Below, piece by piece: positions 5,550 through 53,404 of a DNA stretch of 64,000 nucleotides. The DNA lies in assembly GCA_964017185.1 (NCBI GenBank), contig OZ024877.1, positions 7,604,006 through 7,668,005 on the forward strand, given 5' to 3'. Under the pieces are notes generated by a model. The model saw nothing but the letters and a program-made list of their open reading frames with translations, was not told the origin of the DNA and searched no databases. The stretch is from Rugalucina vietnamica (lineage: Eukaryota; Mollusca; Bivalvia; Lucinida; Lucinidae). The position numbers and the translations under genes are program-made. Numbering within the stretch: position 1 is the first letter of the stretch; every line of letters begins with the position of its first letter.

Positions 5550-5786
5550 GAGCCGCGACGCAAGAAAACCGGAATTTTGCCTATGCGAAAACAAAGACGC
5601 AGATCAGCTGTGCAGTAACTGCACAGCTGATCAGCGCCTTTGTTTTCACTGATCGGACTGTACAATTCCTCTTCTACTTAAATGCAAAATGTCAAGATTC
5701 TAGCTTTTGTCTGTGACTGTATATAGGCCGGTTTGTGTCGGACCTGGTCGGAAACCCTGAAGACCAGTTTTCTCTAGTCGCAGCTC
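5550..5786 (+). mobile_element. MITE-A copy A6 (GCGACGC subfamily)
   Basis: TSD is acat. The hairpin is the variant cagctgtgcagt/actgcacagctg, in which both arms carry matching changes relative to the common cttcgcgg arms. It shares this variant with the copy at 6519. Confidence 0.9.
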
Positions 5787-6518: not shown

Positions 6519-6742
6519 AACCGGTTTTCTAAATATGCGAAAACAAAGACGCAGATCAGCTGTGCAGTAACTGCACAGCTGATCAGCGACATTGTTTTGG
6601 CTACACAGACAGTAAACTACCTCTTCTACTTAGATAAAAAATTTCAAGCTTCTAGCCTCCTTCTATGAGCATACAGGCCGGTTTGTGTCGGACCTGGTCT
6701 GAAACCCTCAAGCTTAAAAATTCTCGCGTCGGGGCTCAATTG
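6519..6742 (+). mobile_element. MITE-A copy A8 between imperfect 28-bp direct repeats
   Basis: The left terminus is eroded to gaaaccgg; the right ends ggggctc at 6737. The hairpin is of the cagctgtgcag type. Positions 6491-6518 and 6743-6770 form a direct repeat matching at 24 of 28 positions. Confidence 0.8.
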
Positions 6743-9957: not shown

Positions 9958-11605
9958 CACATCAAGCAGATTGTGCATTATGCTTAATTCATATCTGCCA
10001 TCTGCATAATGCTGACATTCATATCTGCCATCTGCATTATGCTGACATTTATATCTGTCATATGCATTAAGCTGACATTCATAACTGCCAATTGCATTAT
10101 GCTTACATTCATATCTGCCATCTGCATAATGCTGACATTCATGTCAGCTACAAAACACTGTCACATCAAGCAGATTGTGCATTATGCTGACATTCATATC
10201 ATCCATATCTGTCATATGCATTATGCTGACATTCATAATTGCCATCAGCATTATCTACCATCTGCATAAGGATGACATTAGTATCTGTCATATGCATAAT
10301 GTTGACATTCATATCTGTCATAATTATGCTGGCATTCATATCTGCCATCTGCATAATGCTGACATCCATATCTGTCATATACTTTATGCTGACATTCATA
10401 TCTGCCATCTGCATAATGCTGACACTCATACCTGTCATATACATTATGCTGACATTCATAACTGCCATCTGCATAATGCTGACATTAATATCTGTCATCT
10501 ACATAATGCTGACATGCATATCTGTCATCTGCATAATGCTGACATGCATATCTGTCATCTGCATAATGCTGACATTCATATCTGTCATCTGCACAATGCT
10601 GACATTCATATCTGTCATATGCCATCTGCATTATCTGCCATCTGCATAACACTGACATTTATATCTGTCATATGCATTATGCTGACATTCATAACTGCCA
10701 TCTGCATAATGCTAACCTTCATATCTGCCATCTACATAATGCTGACATTCATATGTCATCTGCATAATGCTGACATTAATATCTGCCATCTGCATTGTGC
10801 TGACATGCATAACTGCCACCTGTATAATGATGACATCCATATGACCATATCTGCCATCTGCATAATGCTGACATTAAAATCTGTTATCTGCATAATGCTA
10901 ACATTCATATCTGCCATTTACATTATGCTGACATTCTTAACTGCCATCTGCATAATGCTGACATTCATGTCATCTACAAAAAGCTGTCACATCAAGCAGA
11001 TTGTGCATTATGCTGACATTCATATATGTCATATGCATAATGCTGCCATTCATAACTGCCACCTGCATTATGCTGACATTCATATCTGTCATATGCATAA
11101 TGCTGACATTCATATCTACCATCTGCATAATGCTGACATTCATAACTACCATCTGCATAATGCTGACATGCATATCTGCGACATGCATAATGTTGGCATT
11201 CATAACTGCCATCTGTATTATGCTGACATTGATATCTGTCATATGCATAATGCTGACATTCATAACTGCCATCTGCATAATGCTGACATGCATATCTGCG
11301 ACAAGCATAATGTTGGTATTCATAACTGTCATCTACATTATGCTGACATGCATACCTGCCACCTACATAATACTGACATTCTTTTCTGCCATCTGCATAA
11401 TGCTGACATGCATATCTGTCATCTGCATATATATTTGCTATTATTAAAATCTGCCATCTGCAAATTACTGACATTCATATCTGCTATGTGAATAATGCTG
11501 ACATTCATATTTGTCATATGCATGATGCTGACATGCATATCTGCCATCTGCATAATGTTGACATTCATTTCTGCCATCTGCATTATGCTCACATTCAAAT
11601 GGATC
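9958..11605 (+). repeat. 1.65-kb minisatellite with 30-bp unit
   Basis: The unit is cataatgctgacattcatat followed by ctgccatctg, roughly 50 copies with point changes. A second marker, cacatcaagcagattgtgca, occurs at 9958, 10162 and 10988, and the last two share their preceding sequence as well, indicating a higher-order duplication of 826 bp. Because the unit is a multiple of three, several frames stay open. Confidence 0.93.
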
Positions 11606-31823: not shown

Positions 31824-32029
31824 ATTTTATCCATGCATATCCACAATCAGTGTCTGCATACAATCGCAAAACTTTTAACCATACATTATGGTTTGCTTAC
31901 AGGTTTTATTATGTGGCTTCTTTTTTCTGCTCCTATCAGAAGACACAAGTTGTGGTTTATAGCTGAAATAGTGTTGTGTAGGTCATAAACAATAGTTTCT
32001 TAAACCAGTCATGTGACATGATCATGTGA

Positions 32030-32036
32030 TCTTACC
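32030..32036 (-). other. Splice donor of the ZFHX exon
   Basis: On the minus strand the sequence reads GAAG|GTAAGA, with the intron starting at 32035. It is a strong consensus donor. It leaves the reading frame in phase 1 and coincides with the end of recognisable family similarity. Confidence 0.85.
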
Positions 32037-35000
32037 TTCATCATCAAACTTGAGGTTGCTAGGGTCTTCAATCTCCTTGACAACGAAGATATCGCCAATG
32101 TCGATCTCCATCTGTCCAGTCTCCTTCATCTCAATCTGTTTGAGGCTTTCATTGTGTAGATGCTGCATAGAGTGCACATGCTGCATCAGACCCAGCTTCG
32201 ACCGTGCATTGAACTTGCAGAGTACGCAGTGGTAGTACTTCTCTGTCGGACCAAGCTTGGACTCCTGCATTTGTAGATGGCGGAACAACTGGGAACTAGC
32301 TTCATGGCGGGGGTTGCCGGTGTGGATCTGAAGTTTGTTTATGCTGTTTGTGTAGTAGTCACAAGCATTGCACCGAACCTGAATAGGATTACTGACGTTC
32401 AAGTATTTCAGGCGCCATTCATTATTATCGCCACCCTCTTTTATATGATTGACTAGCTGAAGTCTTTGCAAGTGTTTATCAGTTTTACAATGAAGCTGAA
32501 AGTTGGCTTTTAGGTTTGTTTTGTACGAACACAGATTGCAGACGTATGTCCCAGTAGCAATGACGATATGCTCACTTTCATTCTGTTTTGTTCTGTCCTG
32601 TTGAAGGTGCTGAAGAAGATTTTCTAACGAGTCTGACCCGTACACACTGCATACACAACATTGGAATAATTTCGCAACATCACGAAGCTCTCCCTCATTG
32701 GCCCCTAAACCAACCCCATTTTCTTTACTCAAGTCCATTGGGGCTTCCCCAAACCCTGTTGGAATCCCTCCCATCATTAGAGATCCATCATATGGAAAGG
32801 TGACCCCACCGGGGATAGGTCCACCGAGTCCCAGGAATGACGGGTCCTGCTGCAACATGACTAACTGGTTCATCTGGTGCAGCTGCATGTCCCTCTGCAT
32901 GTGCTTCATGTTCTGCTGCAGGACCATCATGTTGTGGGTGTGTTTTTCACTTGTCATGTGAATTCGCAGATTTCTTGCCACATTAGTTTCATAGTTACAA
33001 ACATCACATCGCCAGGTTGGTTTTGGCTTTGCTTTCTTCAGGCTATCATTGATAGCCTGCTGTTGTTGTTGCTGTTGTTGTTGTTGTTGTTGTTGTGATT
33101 GTTGCAGCAACTGTTGATGAGGTGGCGTTTTTGTCGGAGGTTGTTGTGGCGTCTGAGGTGGTTGCGGGGTCGGAGTCGGCGGTTGGGAATGCTGGGCAAG
33201 CTGAGTGTGTGGCGGATGTTGCTGTTGATGCACTTTCATTTCCCCACCCCCATTAGCAAGATCCTGCACATTATTCAAATGTTTGTCTGACTGCATGTGA
33301 ATACTGAGATTTCCTTTCGTCGTCGTTGAATAATTACAGACTTCACACCGATATGGTTTATATCCACACGAGTAACTCTCCCCGCGCGCTAACCGTGGGT
33401 GTGATTGGTTCGTTAAACAGTACATACACTTTTGGTCACCTTCAGGATGTTTTTCCTTCATATGGATTTCTAATGTTTCCTGATATTTGTAATGCCAGTT
33501 GCATTTGGGACATTTCAATGTCTTGCATGAGTTTCGCGAATGCATCATGGTCATGTGACCACCAAGGGACTGAGACGAACTAAGAATCATGTCGCAGTTC
33601 GGACATTCTACTCCAGCCGCGCGTCCGTGAGGATGCTCTTCACAACCTCCGAAGAAATTTGGTCGAGTCATCATTGGTGATGGTAAATGAGGTGCGTAGG
33701 ATTTTGAGGAATATGTTGCACTGGTTGTTAACAGTTCATCTTGCATAAACCCTGACGTATGATTCATAAATAAACTCGAGGATGAGTTTGAATCTTCCGG
33801 TATATCAAGACCTAGTTTCTTTTTATCGGTAACTGAGACACTAGTTTCGGGTTTGACATAGTTCAATGTCTTGTGCTGCAGAGCATGTAGCAAAGCAGCA
33901 GCAGGAGAATCACTGTCTTTTCTATTCTCAACACTTAATGTATCTGGTCCTTTAGAGTTAGGTTCCTTGAAGGATTCAGAGTAAGCTCCCTTGAATGAGT
34001 CTGAAAGTTTTGGTTTCGTGTTGACCCAACTAACATTGGTAGATTCCTTTAATGTCAACTGACTATCAGTTGCACTATCAGTCGGAGACTCATCTGAGAA
34101 TGATCTAATCTGATCTAAACCTGAGGACATGGGTTTGCCTGATGATTTGATTGGCTCCAGGAAAGACATCAGAGGTTCTTTCTCCTTACCGATTCCTTGA
34201 ATTATGGCTGAAGAATTCTTCTGGGACATTATTTCCTGCTCCTCTGGAGAAAGAACCATTGAATGTTCATTTATGGCATGTGAGGTGAAAGACTTTGCAA
34301 AACCAAAGGACAGTTTACATATAAAACACATCAGAATAGGTTTGGTAGGGACTGAAGTCACAATTGATGATTTTAACGACGGTGAAAACACAGAAGCTGA
34401 GGTAGATGATATATCTGCATGAGATGATGGTGATTTCATATCTGCCGCTGAATCAGAGGTGTCTGGCGTGCCTTTAGATGGTGTGGACAATGAAGATGAT
34501 GGACTGATTTTCTGAGACTTAAGATCATATACCCGATAGCTGTGCATGATAGGAGTTTGCTGTTTCTGAGGTAACATATACATAGAGTTCATGAAAGAAT
34601 TTGGATTTTTAGGTACAAAGAAAGCATTGTCTATCTGTGGTATAGGTTTTTCAATGAGTTCATCATGTTTTCCTTTCCTGTCTATAATCAAACCTTCTTT
34701 TTGAGGTATATCAATGATAGATTCAAGCTCACTGTCTGAATCTCCTTCTATGATGTAAGCTGAACCATCAGGATTGTAGACAATTTTACCATCAAAACTT
34801 TCAACATCACTTGACTGATTATCACCAGTCTTGTTCAACACAGTACCTGAGTCATGCATACTCTCTATACTCTTATTCCCAGCACAAGAATGGTCCATAT
34901 AATCCTGCAATGTTCGGAATTCAGCATCACAATTACCACATTCTACCGGCTCATCATTACTGTCAGAAAAATCATCAAATTCCCTTTCAATTGCAGTCTT

Positions 35001-35498
35001 GGACTGTCCTTCAGTTTTTTCTTTCACCCTTTCATTCATTCTGACTTGTGTTTGTGGGAAACTATATCCTCTAGCGTCAGTTTTATCTACATTGTCCTCT
35101 TTTTCATCATTATCATTACCATTATTATCATCATCACTAGTCCCATCATCATTCCCTGATTCCGAGTCCACACCATCCATTTCATTCAGTTCATAGCCTG
35201 ATCCTACACCAGAGTTAAAGCAAGTCTGTAGTTTATTCTGCTCATTTGATCCCGCTACATGGTTGGTATTACTGTACACGGAATTTGCGTAGGAGACGTT
35301 ATTGAACACTGAGGTGAAGTTACGACTAGCATTGAACGGGTACATGTAAGCTGAAGCAGGCTCGTTGTTTTCCACAAATAAATTTCTTCCTTTCTGGACT
35401 GGGTTTTCGGCGACCCCGAAGGGTTTTGATGACTCGAGTGCCATTGTGGCGGCGATACCATTATTCAGTGGTACTGTCAGAGAGGGTGGGATGTCCAT
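32036..35498 (-). CDS. ZFHX3: ZFHX3/ZFHX4-type zinc-finger homeobox transcription factor, first coding exon (partial, N-terminal 1154 aa)
   Basis: Nuclear DNA-binding regulator of the ATBF1/zfh-2 family, which acts in neuronal and muscle differentiation. Seen here: an acidic Asp/Asn-rich stretch (residues 113-136); zinc fingers at about 187-205 (C187, C190, H203, C205), 391-412, 632-653, 663-684, 718-740, 831-853, 947-964 (degenerate), 987-1009, 1043-1065 and 1091-1113; a Pro/Gln-rich linker (755-800) with 13 consecutive Gln (802-814); and PMDLS (920-924), a match to the CtBP-binding PxDLS motif. Family signatures include IIQGIGKEKEPLMSFLEP after finger 2, SLGGHMTMMHSRNSCKTLKC (645-664) and PRLARGESYSCGYKP. 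The ATG is fixed by an in-frame TAA 10 codons upstream in the same exon. The exon ends after the first base of codon 1155 at a GTAAG donor. Open reading continues only four codons into the intron. The homeodomains typical of the family (total usually over 3000 aa) are not in this exon. Co-orthologous to vertebrate ZFHX3 and ZFHX4; the two cannot be separated here. Confidence 0.95.
33059..33105 (-). repeat. CAA/CAG trinucleotide tract in the ZFHX exon
   Basis: Encodes the uninterrupted run of 13 Gln (residues 802-814) and neighbouring Gln. Codon use is mainly CAA with interspersed CAG, which normally makes such tracts less prone to slippage. Confidence 0.85.
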
Positions 35499-35518
35499 GA
35501 CCTGACTGGCTCCATCAT
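35477..35518 (-). promoter_or_regulatory. Upstream ORF overlapping the ZFHX start codon
   Basis: A 13-codon ORF starts at ATG 35518-35516 (a second in-frame ATG follows directly) and ends at TGA 35479-35477, 20 nt inside the main CDS in another frame. A shorter uORF (ATG at 35536, six codons) precedes it and ends just before it. Overlapping uORFs often reduce initiation at the main ATG; that role here is inference. Confidence 0.5.
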
Positions 35519-35547
35519 AATACTCTGGTTACCATGGAAATCAACAC
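35499..35547 (-). other. ZFHX3: 5'UTR part of the ZFHX coding exon
   Basis: These 49 nt lie between the splice acceptor and the start ATG. In the main frame they contain TGA and TAA, so translation cannot begin upstream in this exon. They also hold two out-of-frame upstream ATG groups. An upstream non-coding or short exon is implied by the acceptor but was not found. Confidence 0.75.
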
Positions 35548-38134: not shown

Positions 38135-38473
38135 AATTTTTATCAAAAATATATCTGTATCACCTAAAAATAATTGATTTTAAAATTAACAAAGTATGAG
38201 AAAAAGTTTCAACCTCAACAACTGAAATCTCTACATCCAAAGACACAACTATACATGTATTCTATGAACAAGACTAACCAGCTTCTACACCCACTAATTT
38301 CACCAATCTGTCATTCAAGGATGATAATCATGGTACAAATTTCTTTATAGATTCAAACTTGATAAAACTGTACACATCTAGACCCTGGGGACAAAATTAG
38401 CAACCAAAAACTGAGAAAGTATTATCAATACCTAGACAATTGTCATAGACCTGAGGTGTGATCACCGAATAAT

Positions 38474-38528
38474 GCAGGGGTTACACGGGGTGAATTATAG
38501 TTGGTTTTCATGGTGTTTTTCATAGTTA

Positions 38529-38564
<36 letters not shown>

Positions 38565-39258
38565 TATGTGTGCGTTATGTCCCACTTAATAGCTTTGGTC
38601 TCATTATGACCAAACCTCAATTAAAGAGTCTCTTCAGAAAGACAGGAGGAGCAGCTCAGGCTCATACTTGAGTTGAGACCCCTAGGCAAATTGCTTAACT
38701 ATTGTGCTATACAAGTATAAGCGTTTTCAAAACGCTTGCAATCTCTCAGCTCTAGTTTCACTGTATGACCATGTATAAACACACAGCGACAAACACAGGC
38801 CGAAAAGACTTGGTTCAACTTGAGCTTTCATACCCAGGCCGGCATGCCATATTTAGTGTGACACAATCGGAGATGCCTTGTTCATACGACCGGAAGTCGG
38901 TGGTCGATTAACAACAAGATTCCAACCCTGTTCAATTATATATGCGCTCTTGCCATGGCGAGATCGCGATAACCTACATAGGCATTGCATCACTGTAGAC
39001 AACAGATTATGTGGTGTCGCCTTACGATTGATATTAATTATTTGTATTATAAAAATATGAGCAATGTTAAGGGAACTGCAAATTTTAGTTTTTGAAATAC
39101 GAGTGATGCCCAGAAATATTGAAATAACAGTTTGCAAGGCAATCCAAAAGATTTTTGTTATGCAAAAACAAAATGGGGTTAAACCCCCAAAAACTTATTT
39201 TCACACAACCTGGGACAAAAAAAATGACCATCTAAATTGATTGCATTGTAACCCCTGT
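38474..39258. mobile_element. 785-bp inserted segment with short TIR and 20-bp direct repeats
   Basis: The ends caggggttaca (38475-38485) and tgtaacccctg (39247-39257) are exact inverse copies. The segment is bracketed by an exact 20-bp direct repeat, aggtgtgatcaccgaataat, at 38454-38473 and 39259-39278. Inside is a run of 30 A (38533-38562). No convincing ORF. The family is not recognised. Confidence 0.75.
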
Positions 39259-39897
39259 AGGTGTGATCACCGAATAATAGAGAATTAGTAGCTCCACTCC
39301 AATAATACTGGTGACACTTTGAAAAAGTGACAGTTTTTAACGACTTTCTACAACTGACAAAGACTGACCACTCAGTTTGACCAACGTAATTAGCAGAGAG
39401 GAATGTAGTCGCCATAGCGACGATAATTACCCGGCAATTGAATTAGAAATTTATGTGATGTAATTAGAAGTATTTCATGTTAATTGCGGCCAATATAAGG
39501 CCAAGTTTGAAAAGGAAGGACCGACTAATTGTGTTCTCACAAAAGTACTTCACGATTCATTTGATCTGATATAATTGGATTTTCTCTAACCTTTAAGACG
39601 CGTAATTAGTATATAGACGTAGATCAGAAAAAATAACATCTTGGAGCGAGACTAACTATGGTTGTTTTTCTAGATGGTTATTTTAATTTGCAAACCCATA
39701 AGCCGTGTAATGTGTACTTTTGTGTGTTAAACCAGCCATGTGAACATTTTTAAATGATAAGTCAAAGAAAATTTATTTATGTGGGCCTATCCAAAATTGT
39801 AAGTATTTGCCCCATTTTGCTCCAGTAAAATGCTCTCTCAAAAAGTCAAAAAGACTATCTGTTGGTTTTCACTTCCTTTCTTTATCCATTTTCTCAT

Positions 39898-47749: not shown

Positions 47750-48375
47750 ATACTGTTTATATTGTATTGTTTACATGAGATCACAATATTGTGTTGTTTA
47801 CATTATACTGTTTATATACATGAGACCACATTGTGCTGTTTACATGAGATCACAATGTGCTGTTTACATAAGATCACATTGTGCTGTTTACATGAGATCA
47901 CAATGTGCTGTTTACAAGATCACATTGTGCTGTTTACGAGATCACATTGTGTTGTTTACATGAGATCACAATGTGCTGTTTACATGAGATCACAATGTGC
48001 TGTTTACATGAGATCACAATGTGCTGTTTACATGAGATCATATTGTGCTGTTTACATGAGATCACATTGTGCTGTTTACATGATATCATATCATATTGTT
48101 TATATGAGATTGCATTGCATTGTAAAACATGAGATCATATTGTGCAGCTAAGATGAGATCATATTATACTGTTTACATGAGATCACATTATGCTGTTTAC
48201 ACAATATCATACTGTGTTGTTTAATAAACAATACAGTATGATATTGTGTAAACAGCATATTGTGATCTCATGTAAACAGTATAATTTTATGCAAGACTGC
48301 ATTGTATTGTTTACATGAGAGCACATGATATTCTTTTTATGATATAACATTATGCTGTTTACATCAGATCATATT
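47750..48375 (+). repeat. 24-bp minisatellite with an internal inversion
   Basis: The unit tgtttacatgagatcacatt followed by gtgc is repeated about 20 times. The array turns around at about 48224, so units at 48225-48285 are inverted. Confidence 0.9.
48164..48285. repeat. 122-bp palindrome inside the 24-bp array
   Basis: The left arm attatactgtttacatgaga … atcatactgtgttgttta is mirrored by the right arm ending ctcatgtaaacagtataat, centred at 48224/48225. Almost no spacer and few mismatches. Confidence 0.85.
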
Positions 48376-51587: not shown

Positions 51588-53404
51588 CCAGAGGACCAAT
51601 GGTCCTATAAACGCTCACCTGAGAACTGGGATATGTGACTTAAGTTGACCTTGCCATAAAATGGGTCAAGGTCATCCAAGGGTCATGATTTATATATACT
51701 TTATAAAGCTCTATTGCCTGATGCTTCATGCCAAGTTTCAAAATCATAGGCCTTCTGGTTCTGGAGAAAAAGATTTTTAAAGGTTTTTGCTATTTATAGC
51801 CATGGCAGCCATCTTGGTCATGTGACCTTGACCTTTTATATAAATTTTCATTCCCTCTTCCTAACAATGCTCCACTTAAAGTTTGGCTTTTATTGGTATA
51901 GCGGTTTCAGAGAAGTAGATGTTTGAATATTATGGTCATATACATGTATATAGCCCCAGGGCAGGGGCAGACAACCTCCTGGGGTCAAATTTTTTCCATA
52001 AACATAAATTTTCTGTCCATTTGCATACTCCCATTTAATTCCATTTTACTATTTTTTCCCATTCGAATGCATTAGTGAACTAAGTTGACCTTGCTGTAAA
52101 ATAGGTCAACGTCATCCCAGGATCATGATTTATACAAACTTTGTAGAGCTCCATTGCCTGCTGCTTCATGCCAAGTTTCAAAATCATAGGCCTTCCGGTG
52201 CTGGAGAAGAAGATTTTCAAAGGTTTTTGCTATTTATGGCCATGGCGGCCATCTTGGTCATGTGACCTTGACCATTTATACAAACTTTCATTCCCTCTTT
52301 CTAAGGATGCTCCACATAAAGTTTGGCTTTGATTGGCCAAGCGGTTTCAGAGAAGAAGATGTTTGAATATTATGGTCATATACATGTATAAAGCCCCAGG
52401 GCAGGGGCAGACAACCCCCTGGGCCCAAAATATTTTCATAAACATAAATTTTCTGTCCATTTGCTCATTCCTAGCAAGTTTTCTGCCATTAAATGAAATT
52501 TTCCTATTTTTCCCATTCAAATGCATGGGTGACCTAAGTTGACCTTCCCGTAAAAAAAGGTCAAGGTCATCCCATGGTCATGATTTATATAAACTTTGTA
52601 GAGCTCCATTGCCTGATGCTTCACACCAAGTTTCAAAATCATTGGCCTTCTGGTTCTGGAGAAGAAGATTTTTAAAGGTTTTTTTTCTATTTATAGCCAT
52701 GGCAGCCATCTTGGTCATGTGACCTTGACCATTTATATAAACTTTCTTTCCCCCTTCCCAAGGATGCTCCATATGAAGTTTGGCTTTGATTGGCCAAGCG
52801 GTTTCAGGGGAGAAGATGTTTCATTATTATGGAAATATACATGTATATAGCCACGGGGCAGGGGCAGACAACCCCCTAGGGGCTAAAATTTTCCATTAAT
52901 ATTAATCTTCTGTCCATTTGCCTATTCCCAGTATGTTTTACCCATTAAATAGCATTTTACCATTTTTTTCCCATTCAAATGCATTGGCGACCTAAGTTGA
53001 CCTTGCCGTAAAATAGGTCACGGTCATCCTAGGGTCATGATTTATATAAACTATAATGGGCCCGCGTCCCCGATGCTACATACCAAGTTTCGTGGAAATC
53101 GGCCCACTGGTTCTGGAGGAGAAGATTTTTAAAGGTTTTTGCTATTTATAGCCATGGCGGCCATCTTGGTCATGTGACCTGGACCATTTATATAAACTTC
53201 CGTTCCCTCTTCCTAAGGATGCTCCACATGAAGTTTGGCTTTGATTGGCCAAGCGGTTTCAGAGGAGAAGATCTTTGAAATTGTGGACGACGGACGACGG
53301 ACAACGGACGGACGGACAACGGACGGACGGACAAACGACGACGGACGGACGCCGGAGCATGGGTATACTATAAGCTCACCTGTGAGACTTCGGCTCAGGT
53401 GAGC
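51588..53404 (+). mobile_element. 1.8-kb non-coding element with four tandem units, nested in MITE-B
   Basis: Begins with a hairpin (aggaccaatggtcct) followed by cgctcacctgag; ends with ctcaggtgagc. Those two motifs form an inverted terminal match, and TA flanks both sides (51586-51587, 53405-53406). Inside are four copies of a 440-458 bp unit starting at gttgacctt (51644, 52084, 52538, 52996), then a gacgga-type simple repeat (about 53285-53355). No transposase ORF. The TA duplication points to a Tc1/mariner-type mover, which is inference. Confidence 0.85.

Follow-up and report, generated by a model that had tools for sequence, protein, structure and literature searches.

How does a segment with short terminal inverted repeats come to lie between two exact copies of a 20-bp sequence? 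This question is raised by a locus in the genome of the lucinid bivalve Rugalucina vietnamica, which we studied within a window of 64,000 nucleotides (contig OZ024877.1, positions 7,604,006 to 7,668,005 of the forward strand; positions given below without a contig name are those of the window). The 20-bp sequence AGGTGTGATCACCGAATAAT is present at 38454-38473 and again, on the same strand and 100% identical, at 39259-39278, with 785 bp between the two copies, just as a first-pass annotation had recorded. That annotation also described the ends of the 785-bp segment as 11-bp inverse copies of each other: the pair is indeed exact, with CAGGGGTTACA at 38475-38485 (plus strand) and its inverted match at 39247-39257 (minus strand, reading TGTAACCCCTG on the plus strand), but it lies one base inside the segment, separated from the direct repeats by two unlike spacers, a G at 38474 on the left and a T at 39258 on the right. 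If one indel is allowed the direct repeat extends outward as CCTG(-/T)AGGTG; the bases outside the left 20-mer copy are CCTG, and the right inverted repeat also ends in CCTG, followed by the spacer T. The 20-mer further contains a near-palindrome, to which the earlier reading had drawn attention; it is real, but its 4-bp arms (GGTG/CACC around TGAT) are short and we give it no weight.

To gauge the combination of direct and inverted repeats we used 200 dinucleotide shuffles of the window, in which direct repeats flanking a 9-bp inverted pair at a distance of up to 2 bases reached at most 11 bp. The real window contains other such combinations of equal or greater length, namely one of 21 bp in a tandem array and one each of 40 bp and 30 bp, the last two being composed of motifs found repeatedly in the window. 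What sets the locus apart from them is that its 20-mer is unique in the genome: in the 1.09 Gb searched (47 contigs) it has exactly two exact copies, both at the locus, and the next best match has 2 mismatches. With up to 3 mismatches allowed it was found at 27 places, the locus pair included, versus 18 for a reversed control. The presence of only two exact copies rules out an origin of the 20-mer from a dispersed repeat and is as expected of a duplicated target. Elsewhere the window holds a 55-bp exact repeat with palindromic parts (5582-5636 and 6534-6588), whose motifs recur in the window, and large tandem arrays at 9974-11597, 47817-48223 and 51635-53287, with periods of 30/60, 24 and 440 bp, respectively.

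The insert can be divided into a left end (38475-38532), in which agreement with the terminal motif discussed below is limited to the first 11 bases, a run of 30 A (38533-38562), an internal stretch (38563-38710), a nested high-copy repeat (38711-38967) and a right internal part (38968-39246) that leads into the right inverted repeat. Similarity searches of the genome with 38454-38534, 38563-38715 and 38968-39278 recovered no other copies of the insert, each of the three queries matching this locus alone; such searches pass over low-complexity and very frequent words and would overlook distant copies, which is evident from the right-end relatives that a degenerate pattern later found. No transposase match was obtained in the 6 of 26 open frames scanned, where the search for a coding remnant gave a single viral match far below the cut-off (E 0.05), an absence that is expected of a non-autonomous element. 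A structured RNA was rejected because 38300-39450 gave no Rfam match up to an E-value of 1, and a tRNA-derived SINE because no tRNA was found in the window (ARAGORN, bacterial code). On the minus strand, 32022-35528 is a long open frame that we take as an exon; it scores 60.7 bits against PF24056, a zinc-finger model of ZFHX3 type, and has the insert about 3 kb upstream of it.

The run of 30 A had been noted at first pass as a retroposon-like trait. The run itself is real, but it begins 47 bases inward of the left inverted repeat, away from either end of the insert, and an internal run of this kind is ruled out as a retroposon tail. Retroposons generated by target-primed reverse transcription carry a 3'-end tail next to the target duplication and are not known to have terminal inverted repeats, and a target duplication of 20 bp is within their range. 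The present insert has inverted repeats and lacks a tail at either end, and we reject it as a retroposon of this ordinary form. A retroposon with inverted ends that arose by chance would be in keeping with the A run and with the length of the duplication; nevertheless, given the internal position of that run, the missing tails and a right end that fits a terminal motif starting exactly at the inverted repeat, we regard such an origin as scarcely credible.

The nested segment at 38711-38967 (minus strand) is a repeat of its own. A first look at the genome gave 870 candidates for it, and among the best 40 that were scored 39 were other places, with 83-86% identity. At 16 of the 19 loci fetched it is contained within a longer shared repeat; its limits were set by three solo copies (L004-L006), and its length is about 257-270 bp. 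Its minus-strand sequence opens with CGCGATCTC, the other six aligned rows with TGCGATCTC, and near its 3' end the 5' motif recurs in inverted form, followed by a hairpin (-7.2 kcal/mol) and then by ATACTTGT. We take this layout to resemble that of Helentron-derived short elements and accordingly call the repeat Helentron/HINE-like, a name based on structure alone.

With regard to the affinities of the insert as a whole, both of its ends begin with the CA(G)GGG of hAT-type terminal inverted repeats, in the form of CAGGGGTTACA; this start is presumably a mark of hAT elements other than Tip100 as well. Tip100, a hAT element, is described with the 11-bp repeat CAGGGGCGGAG (PMC12511174), and 8-bp duplications are given for published hAT elements (PMC12511174, PMC10368747). 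The P element, with 31-bp terminal repeats and an 8-bp duplication (PMC7776569), is ruled out by the exact 11-bp inverted repeat and the 20-bp direct repeat of the locus. In titles and abstract beginnings of the literature we recognised no element that combines inverted ends with a 20-bp duplication. Casposons, which employ a Cas1 integrase, produce duplications of 14-15 bp. The genome itself encodes hAT transposase domains at at least 116 places (199 candidates, of which the best 150 were scored), and in the 3' flanks of 8 of these 116 loci the best agreement with TGTAACCCCTG shows 3-4 mismatches of 11 in each case.

The exact 11-mer is not enriched in the genome, with 215 places versus 416 for the reversed control. 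Among the first 100 of these 215 places no facing pairs within 10 kb were seen by eye, and none of the 20 places fetched has a partner end together with a 6-10 bp repeat; at one place the 11-mer has a 5-bp repeat and, 5.3 kb away, a partner differing at 3 positions, a weak candidate that we take as chance. The right-end 21-mer, with up to 3 mismatches, is found at 13 places (itself included) versus 7 for the control, a difference that is weak when taken alone. However, two of the four places fetched out of the 12 others match on past the searched bases, and a pattern built from these two and the window picked up two further places, one of them an end of the C14 element described below, and none in the control. 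A degenerate pattern written from six ends is found at 83 places in the genome versus 0 in the reversed control, and by hand count the 83 are made up of the 6 used in writing the pattern, 63 members of a near-identical subfamily and 14 others. The genome search with the termini that had been proposed at first pass yields no close copies, but places the right end within a diverged terminal motif.

This motif is represented in the insert by a 33-bp right terminus of the form CAGGGG...TGGTCA (39225-39257, minus strand), which shares 23-27 of its 33 bases with each of five others in ungapped comparison. The relatives on contigs C17, C1, C14 and C10 begin at the same C as the window terminus and their outer flanks are unrelated by eye; the terminus is thus at 39257, and the T at 39258 is outside the element. 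Agreement of the left end with the motif stops after 11 bases, and its positions 12-33 rank 16,503 of 127,934 against the profile. The second end of the C14 element scores higher than any 33-mer in the window apart from the right end of the insert itself, in a test that is not fully independent, since this second end was unused in prior searches but its partner end is in the profile. In the commonest form of the motif (63 of the 83 places) the only facing pair read sits 11.3 kb apart within a longer inverted repeat, so that this subfamily may not represent element ends. The pair in question (L089/L090, at C15:43038735-43038765 and 43050035-43050065) has outer flanks that are mutual reverse complements, for which reason the form was set aside as evidence on duplication length; the arrangement may reflect a large foldback-like element or else an inverted duplication.

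Duplication length could be read at other elements of this genome. The 401-bp element at C14:32084916-32085316 has the 5-bp direct repeat CTAAT directly at both ends, and these ends agree mutually at 25 of 33 bases. It is like the window insert in that its ends are 23/33 and 26/33 identical to the window right end, and unlike it in that its own repeat is 5 bp and the match past the right terminus is only short and weak. A copy at C15:36427760-36428220 is 89.6% identical over 402 bp and has the same 5-bp repeat; as the outer flanks are shared, the two copies count as one insertion event. In the sequence fetched around the relatives on C17, C1 and C10 we found no second end flanked by a credible duplication. 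The second case is a 3,129-bp element at C5:61964222-61967350 (L075, L083) with a hAT dimerisation domain and a 708-aa open frame, whose ends are CAGTGGCGTAGC and CAGGGGCGTAGC, i.e. CAG(T/G)GGCGTAGC, and whose flanks carry the 5-bp repeat ACGTA. Its two ends share 11 of their first 12 bases, but only 15 when 30 are compared. Here a hAT-domain element has a 5-bp target duplication where the usual hAT length is 8 bp.

Both Tip100 and the C5 element thus resemble the window insert in having short terminal inverted repeats that start with CAGGGG. They differ from it in their duplications, of 8 bp and 5 bp respectively, which touch the ends of the element, whereas the insert has 20 bp and one-base spacers; further, no coding sequence was found in the insert (6 of 26 open frames scanned). 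At the first pass the insert had been said to fit no family, and copies with another duplication length were to count against its being a new kind of element. The former claim is weakened by the CAGGGG ends, by the occurrence of the right-end motif at dozens of places and by the 5-bp duplication of the C14 relative. As to the latter, other lengths do occur, in thin numbers: two independent insertions (the C14/C15 element and the C5 element), of 5 bp each and not close copies of the insert. On these two insertions, the 20-bp repeat is unlikely to be an ordinary product of such an element. A duplication of 8 bp (in this genome also 5 bp) touching the termini is not seen at the locus, and we therefore regard the insert as working like a hAT-type element without filing it as a member. 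From its sequence features we read 38475-39257 (783 bp) as a probable single-copy, non-autonomous, hAT-like element with a nested high-copy repeat. The view that it is non-autonomous is retained from the first-pass annotation, while the hAT-type ends speak against an undescribed kind. In short, we see a transposon-like insert that is ordinary in kind, single-copy as far as searched, and unusual in its scar.

What, then, produced the scar? One explanation would be a hAT-like transposon lineage with an integrase that makes duplications of about 20 bp by way of a 20-bp stagger. The intact 11-bp termini and the exact repeat would agree with such a lineage, as would a left end that past its first 11 bases does not resemble the 5-bp relatives, and the similarity search found no close copies for comparison. 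It is nonetheless very unlikely, since the one relative with both ends read, that on C14, has 5 bp, and one-base spacers are not expected from direct strand transfer.

The 5-bp repeats at the C14 and C5 elements imply that a canonical insertion at the locus should have given a short repeat without spacers. There is no 5- or 8-bp repeat at the ends of the insert, the adjoining five bases being TAATG on the left and TAGGT on the right, and the nearest 8-mers at the two junctions match at 7/8 only with one side offset by 14 bases. That offset match is the starting point of the main rival to the explanation we prefer, in which a normal short duplication (TAATG/TAATA or GAATAATG/GAATAATA) was made first, and a later break at the right junction was mended with filler copied from the left flank, adding a T and 13-16 bases in register. 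It would explain why 8 bases at the left end recur, with one mismatch, 14 bases past the right end, and it fits the 5-bp length at the C14 and C5 elements; in rice, filler is reported in 58 of 94 putative transposon excisions, with a mean of 13 bp (PMC4423477). On the other hand it requires a substitution in one copy of the duplication, an extra T and copying that happened to end in register, and its mirror image, with the filler on the left, fits equally well, so that the data do not single one out. We consider it somewhat unlikely, though a serious contender.

The lack of a short repeat at the termini bears likewise on the possibility that the 20-mer was tandemly duplicated before the element arrived, the element landing between the two copies with no duplication of its own. 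Short tandem duplications are the commonest short insertions in the human genome (PMC8355091), and on this view the spacers G and T would mark where the two copies originally met. But a canonical insertion would have added a short repeat at the termini, where none is present, and the element would have had to land exactly at the junction; this course of events appears distinctly improbable.

Our preferred explanation, held tentatively and at slightly less than an even chance, is that the insert entered by end joining of an excised element into a break with overhangs of about 20 nt, which were filled in. A linear excised copy would have been joined into a break whose ends carried complementary overhangs of about 20 nt, with end joining taking the place of the normal integration step. 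Fill-in of both overhangs would give the 20-bp repeat, and fill-in of a one-base overhang on each excised end would give the unlike spacers G and T. Excision by the hAT transposase Hermes cuts one base outside the element. Of the suggestions made at first pass, repair of a widely staggered break thus survives in part, as the leading explanation for the 20-bp repeat. What we observed directly are the repeats and spacers, the uniqueness of the target, the right-end motif and the 5-bp duplications elsewhere; that the segment inserted at all, that it had first been excised and that a staggered break took it up by end joining are inferred, and we consider the mechanism plausible. Weighing against it are the limited agreement of the left end with the motif, the lack of enrichment of the exact 11-mer, the doubtful standing of 63 of the 83 motif places, a further 6 of which had served in writing the pattern, and the basis of the 5-bp length in two insertions. 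The more specific proposition that a hAT-type element is preserved here as a fossil of its excised state, the spacers being overhangs of the donor flank that the transposase left behind and the repeat a filled-in break, is possible but doubtful; the one-base spacers could also be ordinary substitutions or indels.

If capture of an excised element is the true explanation, long "target duplications" at elements with terminal inverted repeats need not imply a new transposase. They could instead record the capture of excised elements at staggered breaks, with the spacers preserving a reaction intermediate, and this would call for caution in classing elements by duplication lengths taken from single insertions. 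Among known systems, fill-in at staggered breaks is described as a source of short duplications (PMC8355091), and of 38 cases of excised hobo elements joined by the host, 15 had kept both ends intact, 8 of these with one extra base and 3 with none (PMC2803484). The hobo and Hermes episomes differ from our proposal in being circles and in that their reported reintegrations are canonical, at 8-bp target sites; they are like it in that the host's repair machinery joined excised elements whose ends were intact, frequently adding a single base (PMC2803484).
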